Source: an uncultured Erythrobacter sp. (lineage in GTDB: Bacteria; Pseudomonadota; Alphaproteobacteria; Sphingomonadales; Sphingomonadaceae). Taken from it: a stretch of DNA of 64,000 bases. The notes under the pieces were generated by a model, which was not told where the DNA came from, made no database searches, and saw only the letters and a list, made by a program, of their open reading frames with translations. The translations under genes were made by a program, and so were the position numbers. The stretch spans positions 1 through 64,000 of the forward strand of contig CALCCG010000003.1 of the NCBI GenBank assembly GCA_937899785.1, written 5' to 3'. Below are positions 50,086 to 57,172 of the stretch, piece after piece (position 1 is the first letter of the stretch; each line of letters begins with the position of its first letter).

Positions 50086-51330
50086 ATGACCGACCTAGCC
50101 ACTAAAGCCGCCCCTGACGCCGCCACGCCCAAAGGAGACCTATTCTCCAAGTTCGATGGGATGATCGAGCTGCGCGAAACGATTCTCGCGACCGGTGTTG
50201 AAGATCCATACAATCTCGTGATGGAAAAGGTGCTCTCTCCGACGCGCGCCATCTGCAATGGCCGCGATACAATTCTGCTCGGCACCTACAATTATATGGG
50301 CATGACGTTCGACCCCGACGTGCTTGATGCTGGCAAGGAAGCGTTGGAAAGCTACGGCTCCGGCACGACGGGCAGCCGTGTTCTCAACGGCACGTATCAA
50401 GGGCACAAAGAATGCGAGGACGCGCTCAAAGAATTCTATGCGATGGACCATGCGATGGTCTTTTCGACGGGGTATCAGGCCAATTTGGGCATCATCTCAA
50501 CAATCGCCGGCAAGGGTGACTACATCATCCTAGATATCGACAGCCACGCGTCGATTTATGATGGCTGCGCCATGGGCAAGGCTGAGATCGTGCCGTTTAA
50601 GCACAACGATATCGAAGCTCTGGAAAAGCGGATGCGGCGCCTGCCAGCGGATGCAGGCAAGCTCGTCGTTTTGGAAGGCGTGTACTCGATGCTGGGCGAT
50701 GTCGCCCCGCTTCAAGAGATGGTTGCTATCGCGAAAAAGTATGGCGCGATGGTGTTGGTGGACGAAGCGCATTCGATGGGCTTTATCGGAGAGAACGGCC
50801 GCGGTGTTGCCGAACAACAAGGAGTAATCGAAGATGTCGACTTCATCATCGGCACCTTCTCGAAAAGCGTCGGAACCGTCGGCGGCTTCTGCGTCTCGAA
50901 CCATCCCAAGTTTGATATTCTGCGCCTAGTTTGCCGGCCTTATGTCTTCACCGCCAGCTTGCCGCCAAGTGTGGTGGCCACGGCAGCGACTTCGATCCGC
51001 AAGCTGCGGCACGGCGCCAACAAGCGCGCGCATTTGTGGGAGAACTCAAAGCGCCTGCATGAAGGCCTGGTTGAGATGGGGCTCTCGCTCGGTACAGACG
51101 AACCGCAAAGCGCGATTATTGCCGTGATTATGCCGGACTTGGAGCGCGGTGCGATGATGTGGGAGGCGCTTTTGAAGGAGGGCCTCTACGTCAACCTCGC
51201 ACGGCCACCGGCCACGCCAGCTGGCATGACTTTGCTGCGCTGTTCGCTGTGCGCTGAGCACTCCACTGAGGAAGTAGACGCGATACTTGCGATGTTTGAG
51301 AGCGCCGGCAAAGCGGTCGGGATTATCTGA
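50086..51330 (+). CDS. spt: Serine palmitoyltransferase
   Basis: Alpha-oxoamine synthase family: NYMGMTFDPDVLDAGKEALESYGSGTTGSRVLNGTYQGHKECEDAL; PLP Lys in GTFSKSVGTVGGFC; next to an ACP. Confidence 0.93.
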   Translation: MTDLATKAAPDAATPKGDLFSKFDGMIELRETILATGVEDPYNLVMEKVLSPTRAICNGRDTILLGTYNYMGMTFDPDVLDAGKEALESYGSGTTGSRVLNGTYQGHKECEDALKEFYAMDHAMVFSTGYQANLGIISTIAGKGDYIILDIDSHASIYDGCAMGKAEIVPFKHNDIEALEKRMRRLPADAGKLVVLEGVYSMLGDVAPLQEMVAIAKKYGAMVLVDEAHSMGFIGENGRGVAEQQGVIEDVDFIIGTFSKSVGTVGGFCVSNHPKFDILRLVCRPYVFTASLPPSVVATAATSIRKLRHGANKRAHLWENSKRLHEGLVEMGLSLGTDEPQSAIIAVIMPDLERGAMMWEALLKEGLYVNLARPPATPAGMTLLRCSLCAEHSTEEVDAILAMFESAGKAVGII

Positions 51331-51338
51331 CTAGCGGT

Positions 51339-52016
51339 CTAATCCGTGGCGGTAAGCCAACGCGCCGTAGCGACAGCCACAAGAGACCCAATCAACTGGG
51401 CAGCAATAAACATCGGCGCGTCGCCCGGCGCTATGCCGGTGTATGTGTCGGTCAGCGTACGGGCTACCGCGATAGCCGGATTGGCAAAACTGGTAGAAGA
51501 CGTGAACCAAATTGCACTGCTGATATACAACGCAACTGCGGCCGGGATGGCAGCGGGTCGATAGCGCAGCAGCAGCAGAATCGTGAGCACTAGTCCAAAG
51601 GTTGCAATGAACTCTCCCACCCATTGACCCACCCCTGTGCGCGGAGTGTCCGACACCTGAAGCACCGGCAACGTGAACATCACATGCGCCACGAACCCCG
51701 CACAAGAGCCCGCGACCACCTGCACCGCTACGAACGCGGCAGCCAGTCCCGGGCGGATTTCGCGTCGAACTACGAACGCCAACGTCACTGCCGGATTGAA
51801 ATGGGCTCCAGAGATGGGGCCCAGCATCGAAATCAGGACAAACAGAATGGCCCCGATCGACAATGTGTTGGAGATCAGAGCGACCCCGCCGTTTCCGCTC
51901 GCCAAGTCTTCTGCCATGATCCCGGATCCGATCACGGCCAGGAATAGGAAAAAGGTTCCAATCGCTTCGGCTACAAGTTTGCGGGCGGTGTTTGGTTCAG
52001 ACTCTTCACTGGTCAT
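51339..52016 (-). CDS. Aquaporin (MIP family)
   Basis: GPISGAHFNPAVTLAF and SFANPAIAVARTLTDTYTGI (two NPA motifs). Confidence 0.94.
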   Translation of the reverse strand: MTSEESEPNTARKLVAEAIGTFFLFLAVIGSGIMAEDLASGNGGVALISNTLSIGAILFVLISMLGPISGAHFNPAVTLAFVVRREIRPGLAAAFVAVQVVAGSCAGFVAHVMFTLPVLQVSDTPRTGVGQWVGEFIATFGLVLTILLLLRYRPAAIPAAVALYISSAIWFTSSTSFANPAIAVARTLTDTYTGIAPGDAPMFIAAQLIGSLVAVATARWLTATD

Positions 52017-52677
52017 AGCGTGCCTCAATTGAGCCTGGATTGGCGCAAGGTCCGCCGGCGGATTCATCGCCACCGCCAAACTGTGTCAACACCGCCACAC
52101 CACCGATCACAAGCAGCACGAAAGCGGATGTCACGAACCCTAAATAGCGATCAATAAGGCTCTTTATAGGAGCGCCAAAAACGCGGAACAGCAAGCCGAT
52201 AGTGAAGAAGATCATCCCGCGACCGATGAGACTGGCGGCGATGAATGTCGCGAAGTTCATGCTCACAAATCCCGCGCTGATTGTGAGCAGTTTGAACGGT
52301 ACAGGCGTTGAGCCGGCGATAATGATCGCCTCCCAATCATACTCTTTGAGATAGCACGCCGCGGCCGGAAAGCTCTCAGAAAGCCCGATAAGCTTGAGCA
52401 GCCAAACGCCCACGCTGTCAAACAGAGCCACACCTATGAGGTATCCGAACGCCCCCCCTGCCACCGATGCAAGCGTGGCAATGATCCCAAACCGCAGAGC
52501 CTTCTTGGGTTCCGCAAGGCACATCAATCCGAGCAGGGGGTGTGGGGGGATCGGAAAAAAGCTTGCTTCGACAAAGCAGAAAAAAGTCAGCCACCCTTGC
52601 GCATAGGGGTGCGAGGCTTTGTCCATGGTCCACTCGTATAGTGCACGCAGCCAAGCCATTAGCAGCCAATCTCCCAT
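52006..52677 (-). CDS. YqaA/DedA-like (VTT domain) membrane protein
   Basis: FVEASFFPIPPHPLLGLMCL...GGAFGYLIGVALFDSVG...PFKLLTISAGFVSMNFATFIAASLIGRGMIFF. Confidence 0.88.
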   Translation of the reverse strand: MGDWLLMAWLRALYEWTMDKASHPYAQGWLTFFCFVEASFFPIPPHPLLGLMCLAEPKKALRFGIIATLASVAGGAFGYLIGVALFDSVGVWLLKLIGLSESFPAAACYLKEYDWEAIIIAGSTPVPFKLLTISAGFVSMNFATFIAASLIGRGMIFFTIGLLFRVFGAPIKSLIDRYLGFVTSAFVLLVIGGVAVLTQFGGGDESAGGPCANPGSIEARYDQ

Positions 52678-52766
52678 CTTGGCCCTCGAGCCGCTGAATG
52701 TCCGCCTAGGACAGGCTTGCAGGGAGCGCAAGTAGCATCCCTTAAAACCTATTTGGTAAAAAAAGA

Positions 52767-52794
52767 TTGACATTGTAACGCTATTTGGTTACAA
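52767..52794 (+). promoter_or_regulatory. Putative promoter with operator-like inverted repeat upstream of the GTA-like genes
   Basis: TTGACA (52767-52772), 16 bp, TTACAA (52789-52794); perfect inverted repeat TTGTAAC-gctatttg-GTTACAA (52773-52779 / 52788-52794). Confidence 0.55.
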
Positions 52795-52814
52795 AGAGGC
52801 AACATCGCAAAAGT

Positions 52815-53384
52815 GTGAGTCGCAAAGAGATCGCGGCACACCCCGCCCTTCGCGGCCATTCCAACTGGAAAGGCCGCTTTCTTAGTGCCGTCCCGACCCC
52901 GGAGGTCACGATCACCGCGTCCCACAAACGAACCAACATCAACGACCAACTCAAGAGGGGTGAGGAGCCTGGCCTTAACCGCCATTGGCGCGGCCGGTTT
53001 CTCGACTTTCTGGCCGAAAGTTCAAACGTGTCCGAATCCGCCAGGCGGGCCGGGATCAACCCCAGCCGGGCCTATAAGGTTCGCCGCGAGGAGCCCGAAT
53101 TCGCCCGTCAATGGCTTGCCGCCTTATGGGAGGGCTACGTCCATCTCGAATTGGAAGTCTTGCGACGGCTTCGCGAAGGAGACAATTCCACCAGCGGCAA
53201 CGACAAATACGACTTCGCCAACGCCATAAGGCTGCTGAACGCGCATCGCGACAACGCCGTGCGGGCTCAGGCCGAACAACGCAATGTAAGCGCCGCTGAA
53301 ATACGCGCCTCGATCGATCGAAAAGTCGAAGCGATCCGGCTCCAAGTGCAGCGCGAGAAGCTCAAGAGTCCGGCCAGATCGTGA
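52815..53384 (+). CDS. GTA/phage-associated small-terminase-like protein
   Basis: GTG start downstream of the promoter; HTH-like WRGRFLDFLAESSNVSESARRAGINPSRAYKVRREEPEFARQW; overlaps the terminase start at 53381. Confidence 0.65.
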   Translation: MSRKEIAAHPALRGHSNWKGRFLSAVPTPEVTITASHKRTNINDQLKRGEEPGLNRHWRGRFLDFLAESSNVSESARRAGINPSRAYKVRREEPEFARQWLAALWEGYVHLELEVLRRLREGDNSTSGNDKYDFANAIRLLNAHRDNAVRAQAEQRNVSAAEIRASIDRKVEAIRLQVQREKLKSPARS

Positions 53385-54706
53385 CCATCAATTTGTCGTT
53401 CCTCGCCGAGGAAGACAGCGATACACGCGATCGGATCGTAAATGCGCTGGATCAACGTGAGCGCAACGAGTTCGATTTCCATTGGGAATTGAATGCAAGA
53501 CCGCCGCAACTGGCTCCGACAGGGGACTGGCGCACATGGATGATTATGGCCGGGCGCGGTTTTGGCAAGACCCGGGGGGGTGCCGAATGGGTGCGGCAGA
53601 TCGCCGAAAGCAAGCCTAACGCGCGCGTTGCGCTCTTGTCGTCTTCGCTTGCGGAAGCCCGTAGCGTAATGATTGAAGGAGAGAGCGGTATCCTGGCTTG
53701 CTCACCCCCTGATCGTCGCCCGATCTTCGAGCCATCATTACGGCGACTGCGATTTCCCAATGGTGCGCAGGCCCAGATCTATTCCGCCGCTGAACCAGAG
53801 AGCTTGCGAGGTCCTCAGCACAGCCACGCTTGGTGCGATGAAGTCGGGAAGTGGCCGCTTAGCGGAGAGCGAGCGACACGATGCTGGAACAATCTGCTTA
53901 TGGGCCTGCGGCTTACGGCTCGTCCCCAGACGATGGTGACAACGACACCGCGAACGGTGCCCTTGATCGAACGGCTGTTGAAACAAGAAAAGCAGGGTTC
54001 GATCGCGGTTACGCGCGGATCCACTTACGACAATGTCGGCAACCTACCTCGCCGGTTCTTTGAAGCCATTGAGACGGAGTTTTCCGGGACACAACTAGCC
54101 CGCCAAGAAATCTGTGGCGAGTTTCTCGCGGACATTGAAGGCGCTCTTTGGACGCGAAGCGTGCTCGAAGCTTCACGCGAAGATGGCGTTGCACCGGTGT
54201 ATCGCCGGGTCGTTGTCGCGGTGGACCCGCCAGCTTCGGCCAAAGGGGACGAATGCGGAATTGTCGTCGCATCCCTTGGAGAAGATGGCGTGGCCCGCGT
54301 CCTTGCGGATTGCAGCGTCGCGCAAGCAGGTCCCGGTGATTGGGCGAGCGCGGTAAGCGCAGCCGCTAAAGAGTGGCAGGCCGACCGGGTTGTGGCGGAG
54401 GCCAATCAGGGCGGAGCAATGGTAGAGAGCGTCTTACGCGCCGTAGATAAGGCGTTACCCATCAAGCTCGTACACGCGAGCCATGGGAAAGTCGCGCGAG
54501 CGGAACCCATCGCGGCGCTCTACACGGCCGGCCGAGTTCGACACCGCGGGATCTTCGCGAGGCTCGAAGACCAATTGTGCGGCCTCCTAACCGGCGGCGA
54601 TTACGCCGGGCCGGGCCGCAGCCCCGATAGAGCCGACGCTCTTGTGTGGGCGCTGAGTGAACTCATGCTCAACCGCCCCACGCGGCCAAGCGTTCGCCCG
54701 ATCTGA
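53381..54706 (+). CDS. GTA/phage large terminase (DNA packaging ATPase)
   Basis: Walker A MIMAGRGFGKTRGGAEWVR; Walker B HAWCDEVGKW; nuclease-domain-like VAVDPPAS...DRADALVWALSEL. Confidence 0.93.
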   Translation: MTINLSFLAEEDSDTRDRIVNALDQRERNEFDFHWELNARPPQLAPTGDWRTWMIMAGRGFGKTRGGAEWVRQIAESKPNARVALLSSSLAEARSVMIEGESGILACSPPDRRPIFEPSLRRLRFPNGAQAQIYSAAEPESLRGPQHSHAWCDEVGKWPLSGERATRCWNNLLMGLRLTARPQTMVTTTPRTVPLIERLLKQEKQGSIAVTRGSTYDNVGNLPRRFFEAIETEFSGTQLARQEICGEFLADIEGALWTRSVLEASREDGVAPVYRRVVVAVDPPASAKGDECGIVVASLGEDGVARVLADCSVAQAGPGDWASAVSAAAKEWQADRVVAEANQGGAMVESVLRAVDKALPIKLVHASHGKVARAEPIAALYTAGRVRHRGIFARLEDQLCGLLTGGDYAGPGRSPDRADALVWALSELMLNRPTRPSVRPI

Positions 54707-54718
54707 AAAGGAACCCAT

Positions 54719-55586
54719 ATGGCTTGGATCGATACTTTTCTCTCTGCCTTTAAAGGTGGGGAGACGTCCCGCGTGCCCCTCGCGTCGGGCTTTGTTACCG
54801 GCATGCCGGGCGAATGGCTTCATGCGTTTGAGGCGACCATCCCCGATGGCTATGAATACACGAGCGCCGTACGCCGCGGTTTTCTCGCCAACCCGATTGC
54901 TCAGCGCGCCGTCCGCATTGTCGCGGAGGGCATTGCCCAAGCCCCACTTTCAAGCTCGCATGCGGAGCTCATGGCGCTTGTTAAGGCCACGAGCGCAGGC
55001 CAACCACTTGTCGAAACTCTGGCGGCGCACTTGCTGCTCCATGGCAATGGCTACGTGCAAATCGTAAAGGACGCCCAGGGACGGCCCTATGAACTCTACG
55101 CCCTTCGGCCAGATCGCGTGCAGATCGTGACCGATGAAAGTGGTTGGCCGTGCGCGGTCGACTACAATATAGCAGGCGAGCAACGCCGCATCCCGATGGA
55201 AGACGACGATGGTTGGCCAAGCCTCATCCAGGTTAAGGCAATGCATCCGCTAGAGGACCACTACGGTGCCAGCGCGCTCGCCGCCGCGCACGAAGCGGTG
55301 AAAATTCATAACGCCGCCTCGGCTTGGAATTGCGCTCTGCTTGACAACGCGGCGCGGCCATCCGGCGCACTAGTCTACGATACGGGCGATGGTGCAGGGC
55401 TCACCAACGATCAGTTCGATCGGCTCAAATCGGAACTGACAACCGCTTTCTCTGGCGCTGGTAACGCGGGTCGACCGATGCTTCTCGATGGCGGTCTAAA
55501 ATAGCAGAGTATGGCGCTTTCGCCCGCTGATATGGACTTTGCAACGCTGAAAAGCACCGCAGCGCGCGAGGTGGCCCTGGCATTCG
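54719..55586 (+). pseudogene. Phage/GTA portal protein gene, disrupted
   Basis: HK97-type portal sequence (LLLHGNGYVQIVKDAQGRPYELYALRPDRVQIV) interrupted by TAG at 55502-55504. The same frame continues QSMALSPADMDFATLKSTAAREVALAF (a portal motif) and then breaks at about 55586. Confidence 0.85.
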
Positions 55587-55820
55587 AGTAAGATTGCCGT
55601 GCGCGTTGCCGAGAGCTGGCATTTCGTCGACCCGATTGATGGGCTCGAAGTCTACGATCATGCCGCGCGGCAAAAGCGGGTTTTCAAGACGGTATGGCAC
55701 CAAGTTTCCGTTCCCGCGCAAGCACAAGGTGGAAGCGTGGTCGATGTCGAGGCTCGTGCTATGTTGGCCGAACTGATCGCGGGGCTTCGCAACGTTGGGA
55801 TATTTACAGAGATGGTGTGA
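55587..55820 (+). pseudogene. 3' remnant of a DUF2793-like terminal GTA gene
   Basis: Frame reads SKIAVRVAESWHFVDPIDGLEVYDHAARQKRVFKTVWHQVSVPAQAQGGSVVDVEARAMLAELIAGLRNVGIFTEMV*, resembling DUF2793 C-termini; no proper start. Confidence 0.6.

Positions 55821-56011: not shown

Positions 56012-57172
<1,161 letters not shown>

Follow-up and report, generated by a model that had tools for sequence, protein, structure and literature searches.

The closest described system is the RcGTA-like head–tail cluster of the Alphaproteobacteria, whose gene order is seen in intact relatives at the locus described here. The portions of PMC10883770 consulted identify DUF2793 as a gene transfer agent (GTA) tail-fibre protein, and read pseudogenised or lost GTA clusters as cheater lineages. 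The literature anticipates GTA-minus cheaters and records that the whole cluster exceeds the capacity of most particles (PMC10883770, PMC6209664, in the portions consulted); models hold that GTA-minus cells should invade (PMC6209664). How GTAs persist, given that producing cells lyse and non-producing cells survive, is a standing question. Viswanathan et al. in 2017 reportedly noted a proline-rich OmpA gene beside a conserved Sphingomonadales prophage, which is probably the same element as the GTA locus of this study; that element was reportedly described as a prophage, unlike the GTA reading given here.

Anatomy of the GTA stump

The window is the whole 64,000-nt stretch analysed, positions 1 to 64,000 of the forward strand of contig CALCCG010000003.1 from an uncultured Erythrobacter sp. 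(assembly GCA_937899785.1). Its GTA cluster begins with an intact gene for the small terminase subunit, TerS (GTA g1; 52785..53384, + strand), identified by PHROG 4044 ‘terminase small subunit’ (E 3.9e-10) and by synteny in relatives. The TerS stop is overlapped by the GTG start of the large terminase gene, TerL (g2; 53381..54706, +), which encodes a 441-residue protein with intact ATPase and nuclease domains. Both Pfam models (PF03237 and PF17289; Terminase_6N, 63.7 bits and Terminase_6C, 71.2 bits) score above cut-off, and the protein aligns over its full length with 76% identity to TerL of genome G036, the closest relative with an intact cluster, which carries the whole 13-kb cluster in the same place. 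An earlier, sequence-only reading of the window had called the terminase-type genes intact and the packaging ATPase open, and both statements hold.

The portal gene (g3) is broken twice. Its N-terminal 261 codons (54719..55504, +; PF04860, 127.9 bits over 54719-55501) are closed by an in-frame TAG at 55502-55504, where the G036 codon is TGG (GGLKWQSLALSP). The PF04860 profile resumes after the TAG over 55505-55588, delineating a portal remnant in the unchanged frame (55505..55586, +; profile positions 205-231) that runs up to a deletion joint. This second lesion, near 55585-55590 (+), is located by alignments to the G036 portal and to the DUF2793 genes of loci L041 and L176: the DNA alignment between the window and G036 portals extends from 54719 to 55584 and then stops, and ~11 kb is missing, as judged from the spacing of the corresponding points in G036. 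The portal had been read as ending abruptly at about 55586; similarity does end there, but the gene is already closed by the TAG. Likewise, the deletion proposed in that reading is borne out by synteny, but it is one of at least two lesions, the nonsense codon being another.

Beyond the joint lies a 3′ fragment of the DUF2793 tail-fibre gene, a pseudogene out of frame with the portal (55587..55820, +). It matches PF10983 at profile positions 43-83 of 87 with 22.7 bits (E 9e-5 against Pfam, 2e-4 in the genome search), a score short of the 27-bit curated cut-off, since the domain is incomplete here. This is the sole PF10983 match in the genome, and the piece aligns with the DUF2793 gene of intact relatives at the same locus, confirming the suggestion that the frame after the joint belongs to a DUF2793 protein. 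Chance is not a reasonable explanation for the matches in the stump, and we regard its anatomy (an RcGTA-like stump with a broken portal and a 3′ piece of DUF2793) as close to certain. Compared with an RcGTA-like cluster, the window lacks everything between mid-portal and the tail fibre; the cluster therefore cannot make particles, and the strain is a GTA non-producer. Of the capsid and tail genes that define a functional GTA, no HK97 capsid gene (PF05065) was detected genome-wide; the assembly is a draft of 256 contigs and 95.85% completeness, which makes the evidence for capsid absence strong but not absolute.

The stump is flanked on the left by acyltransferase, aquaporin and VTT-domain genes (50086..52773, given without strand), placed by tblastn synteny. 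These neighbours are shared with relatives, and the window locus is therefore orthologous to theirs. The conserved right-hand neighbour is a proline-rich OmpA gene (56012..57172, +; PF00691) that adjoins DUF2793 in nearly every locus with that end in view. Within it, a long CCG-rich run at 56726-56820 encodes a polyproline linker. In several relatives’ drafts the shared joint described below lies ~1.3 kb from a contig end, and these assemblies probably break in the CCG-rich run.

The intact cluster in Erythrobacter relatives

Erythrobacter relatives carry a complete ~13 kb cluster at the same locus, with the acyltransferase and often the VTT-domain gene on its left and OmpA on its right. Its order is TerS, TerL, portal, HK97 protease, HK97 capsid, connectors, tail proteins, TIGR02217 distal tail, TIGR02218 baseplate hub, NlpC/P60, megatron and DUF2793 tail fibre. 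In genome G011 (locus L046), models for the HK97 protease and capsid, head–tail connector, TP901-1 tail tube, TIGR02217 (Rcc01695 family), TIGR02218 (GTA baseplate hub) and DUF2793 score above cut-off. NlpC/P60 is also matched, and scores against the GTA megatron and RcGTA tape-measure models fall short of the NCBIfam cut-offs.

Several features mark the cluster as RcGTA-like. TerL, the portal and their neighbours are orthologous and syntenic with those of G036 and other genomes, and RcGTA-type families are found in L046. The chromosomal place is fixed, with flanks from spt/VTT to ompA common to dozens of species; the L046 open reading frames with family matches are structural, and integrase and replication genes are absent from among them. 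A distal DUF2793 tail-fibre gene is indicated by PF10983 in both the window and L046. Synteny with ~50 Erythrobacter genomes with intact TerL, most with the whole cluster in view, thus bears out two further points of the sequence-only reading, the GTA identity of the cluster and the distal position of DUF2793. Five intact clusters (L162, L160, L161, L148 and L167 in G066, G104, G103, G101 and G098) contain an extra 0.5-1.3 kb between TerL and the portal.

A shared joint in collapsed clusters

The TerL N-terminus is present in 91 of 114 Erythrobacter genomes, and 28 of these 91 contain a collapse different from that of the window, in which TerL residue 150 is joined to DUF2793 residue 31 (loci L032-L040, L118, L121, L122, L130, L133, L137, L138, L142, L145-L147, L151, L155, L156, L158, L163, L164, L173 and L183). 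‘Intact’ here denotes a TerL of full length in a cluster not otherwise broken, with some draft contigs ending before the tail fibre, and five genomes are left unclassed. On the left side of the shared joint, similarity to TerL extends to residue 150 and breaks off immediately ahead of Walker B (WCDE); on the right side, DUF2793 continues at the GQAQKEFF motif, +1 out of frame. The register of the joint is identical in all 28; the joint base itself is usually T, with C or A in a few genomes. This stump keeps TerS, TerL 1-150 with Walker A (TerL′) and DUF2793 from about residue 31, which spans the whole PF10983 domain (DUF2793′).

A search of the 28 collapsed genomes, closed ones included, recovered no terminase C-terminus, and relocation of the GTA core elsewhere in these genomes is rejected on that ground. 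Nor was a terminase C-terminus found in G091 (L125) and G128 (L135), where the same left cut in TerL leads into the baseplate hub gene near its residue 138; in intact relatives, TerL and the hub gene share 2-4 bp at these joint sites. Assembly error is unlikely to account for the shared joint, which is present in single-contig genomes such as G003, G021, G083, G100, G102 and G116.

Private joints are found in six genomes (G000, G019, G067, G112, G126 and G010), the window’s included. G126 (L172), a very close sister of the intact G006, joins TerL residue 97 to DUF2793 residue 47 and is a case of recent loss. The portal–DUF2793 junction of the window is in no other genome examined, so that the finding that would have counted against the earlier deletion model, relatives with the same short arrangement, was not made for this junction; many relatives carry another short arrangement with one common junction, between TerL and DUF2793. 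The window does not contain this TerL codon 150–DUF2793 codon 31 joint, which characterizes the commonest non-producer form seen in the genus.

Taken alone, the window lesion is a known kind of event, the loss of a GTA cluster in one lineage. Its private junction and the unique end points of six genomes are consistent with ordinary decay, a recent random GTA loss with nothing wider behind it, and GTA loss with pseudogenisation is known (PMC10883770, in the portions consulted). This is probably the correct account of the window’s own lesion, yet as a full explanation it is very improbable, as it leaves unexplained the joint in 28 relatives and, as described below, in at least 13 further genera. 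The surprising part of the locus is this joint shared by relatives, outside the window, which is hard to explain by chance deletion. The cheater lineages of PMC10883770 are likewise non-producers derived from producer lineages and scattered among producers; no single deletion joint that recurs at the same base throughout a family is described in the portions of that source consulted. The literature searched, which did not reach the 2017 Sphingomonadales prophage paper, contains no description of the shared joint. An allele with one diagnostic joint, present in dozens of species beside intact sisters, would make the question of GTA survival testable in natural populations.

Distribution over the species tree and the family

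The collapsed state is scattered over the species tree. Sharing of the state requires at least 20 changes on well-supported branches, its clustering is no greater than that of shuffled labels, and it is found mainly at the tips. The tree was built from rpoB, spt and acp of 82 genomes; spt and acp lie near the locus, and the tree is thus not fully independent of it. Gene trees for TerL 1-150 and DUF2793 follow the species, with collapsed G117, G021, G090, G102 and G108 adjoining intact G005 (in the TerL tree only), G078, G066, G024 and G136, respectively. Horizontal spread of one whole haplotype is ruled out by this agreement of the TerL′ and DUF2793′ trees with the species.

In a set of 53 family genomes, selected because their TerL matches were short, the same joint was read in at least 13 further genera, several of which also contain full-length TerL. 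A degenerate pattern of the joint matches 25 of ~313 family genomes and none of 86 genomes from other families in the order, and a reversed control pattern gives no matches; the pattern is strict and misses G003, G004, G021 and G072 among others, making 25 a lower bound.

State of the retained genes

The terminase genes of the window are not accelerated. Measured against ~40 outgroups, the difference in protein divergence between the window and G036 is -0.007 for TerS, 0.000 for the N-terminal and -0.012 for the C-terminal part of TerL, whereas the DUF2793 piece is faster than its G036 counterpart by 0.094. These rates allow two states for the window terminase, a recent release from selection or continuing constraint, the same options that the sequence-only reading had posed.

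Among the collapsed genomes, dN/dS is low in two sister pairs: 0.02 for TerS, 0.06 for TerL′ and 0.12 for DUF2793′ in G018/G061, and 0.05 for TerL′ in G115/G116. Collapsed lineages have no significant excess protein change in TerS or TerL′; DUF2793 has a mean excess of 0.013 (p 0.027), as does the neighbouring ompA (0.022, p 0.027). Two codons beside the joint differ in usage between alleles in ways that are silent for TerL. Codon 149 is CAT, which provides an ATG in the DUF2793 frame, in 14/27 collapsed and 13/50 intact alleles (p 0.028), and codon 150 is GCT, providing Leu in that frame, in 11/26 and 4/50, respectively (p 7e-4). The p values for rates and codons are uncorrected for shared ancestry and for multiple testing. 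In at least 25 of the 28 collapsed genomes DUF2793′ looks open; it is broken in G004 and G083 and cut by a contig end in G080.

These observations bear on the idea that TerS–TerL(1-150)–DUF2793 is a selected, working gene set, for example an inhibitor of GTA or phage packaging in which a terminase with Walker A and without Walker B would act as a poison subunit. The low dN/dS, the lack of significant excess change in TerS and TerL′, the open DUF2793′ frames and the enrichment of CAT and GCT would all fit such a role. Seven collapsed genomes, however, contain no ATG, GTG or TTG start in the DUF2793 frame, the breaks of that frame in G004 and G083 also tell against it, the TerL′ tail past the joint has no fixed length, and the window’s own stump does not have the TerL(1-150)–DUF2793 structure. 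Exchange with intact alleles, or recent deletion, would also give low dN/dS. We consider a selected gene set unlikely as the explanation of the joint, although some retained function may exist whether the joint had a single origin or formed by repeated deletion.

Origin of the shared joint

In intact genomes, microhomology between the TerL and DUF2793 sites amounts to 0-2 bp, and in-register similarity between the two joint sites does not rise above background, the true register taking rank 161 of 241. Tyrosine and serine recombinases need a shared core sequence. The lack of homology at the joint argues against deletion via direct repeats or microhomology, and conservative site-specific recombination by either recombinase class does not fit a joint with 0-2 bp in common. 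That leaves a single origin of the joint or a process that cuts at two set positions.

A single origin is supported by the combination of a shared base register, scatter over the tree and absence of homology, while TerL′ and DUF2793′ follow the species. We put at about even the probability that one ancient GTA-minus allele has been kept in circulation and re-flanked by recombination. The TerL-150/DUF2793 allele would have arisen once and stayed in circulation beside the intact allele, and homologous recombination would have swapped its flanks time and again for those of the local intact allele, leaving the joint alone shared by descent. At ~1.5 kb, the stump could be small enough for packaging into a GTA particle and could convert a recipient that has the intact allele; the 13-kb cluster probably could not make the return trip. 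A fitness balance between collapsed and intact alleles would be expected, and the window would be one case of a family-wide producer/non-producer state. A more tentative proposal, which we consider somewhat less likely than not, is that this GTA-minus allele is as old as the family and persists beside the intact GTA in many species as a long-lived polymorphism, spread by recombination and perhaps inside GTA particles, with a stump that may encode a packaging inhibitor.

The flanks place demands on a single origin. At matched rpoB distance, collapsed alleles show no excess similarity to one another near the joint relative to intact alleles, even within ~15-20 bp, so that recombination would have to occur very near the joint, repeatedly, in almost every lineage. 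This pattern favours formation in place, unless recombination acts very close to the joint; by a rough estimate, recombination that close is possible if it is frequent over a species’ lifetime. Under a single origin, G091 and G128, with the same left cut and another gene on the right, must have a separate account.

The alternative is that a nuclease or joining process repeatedly makes the same deletion in place in many species, cutting at TerL codon 151 and DUF2793 codon 31, with collapsed lineages tending to die out. The flanks of collapsed alleles match the intact allele of a sister species almost to the joint, as would be expected: G108 and G136 are identical over 39 nt on the DUF2793 side, G102 and G024 share TTCAGTCACGCC, and G128 and G122 share the left side. 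The absence of excess similarity among collapsed alleles, the concentration of the state at tips and the reuse of the left cut with a different right end in G091 and G128 also agree with repeated deletion. However, the two sites have neither homology nor a conserved core, and at least 20 joinings of the same two points, 12.7 kb from each other, would call for a dedicated system, of which none is visible in the cluster. We know of no enzyme that cuts and joins at such fixed points. The shifts at codons 149-150 further suggest that many collapsed alleles are not brand new. On balance we find repeated deletion rather doubtful; if the joint does form anew repeatedly, it points to a new precise deletion process in bacteria.

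For an allele in circulation, carriers and mixed populations are of interest. No donor or carrier of the collapsed allele was observed: viral contigs contain no exact match to the pattern of the collapsed joint or to that of the excised-circle junction, and plasmids and phages contain no near source of TerL, all matches being below 60% identity. No case of both alleles within one species was read among the genomes examined, which counts against a standing polymorphism. In the draft G119 (L166, L183), a TerS–TerL′ contig ends at CATGCCTG, the exact point of divergence between the collapsed (TGC) and intact (TGG) alleles. It shares an overlap of exactly 141 bp with the contig containing the collapsed joint, which resembles a forked assembly graph; 141 bp is a usual k-mer size for a metagenome assembler. 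Contigs of G277 (L282) and G369 (L292) end at the same allele-parting point. The second path at the fork was not found in G119, G277 or G369; the simplest reading of these contig ends is that both alleles were present in those samples.
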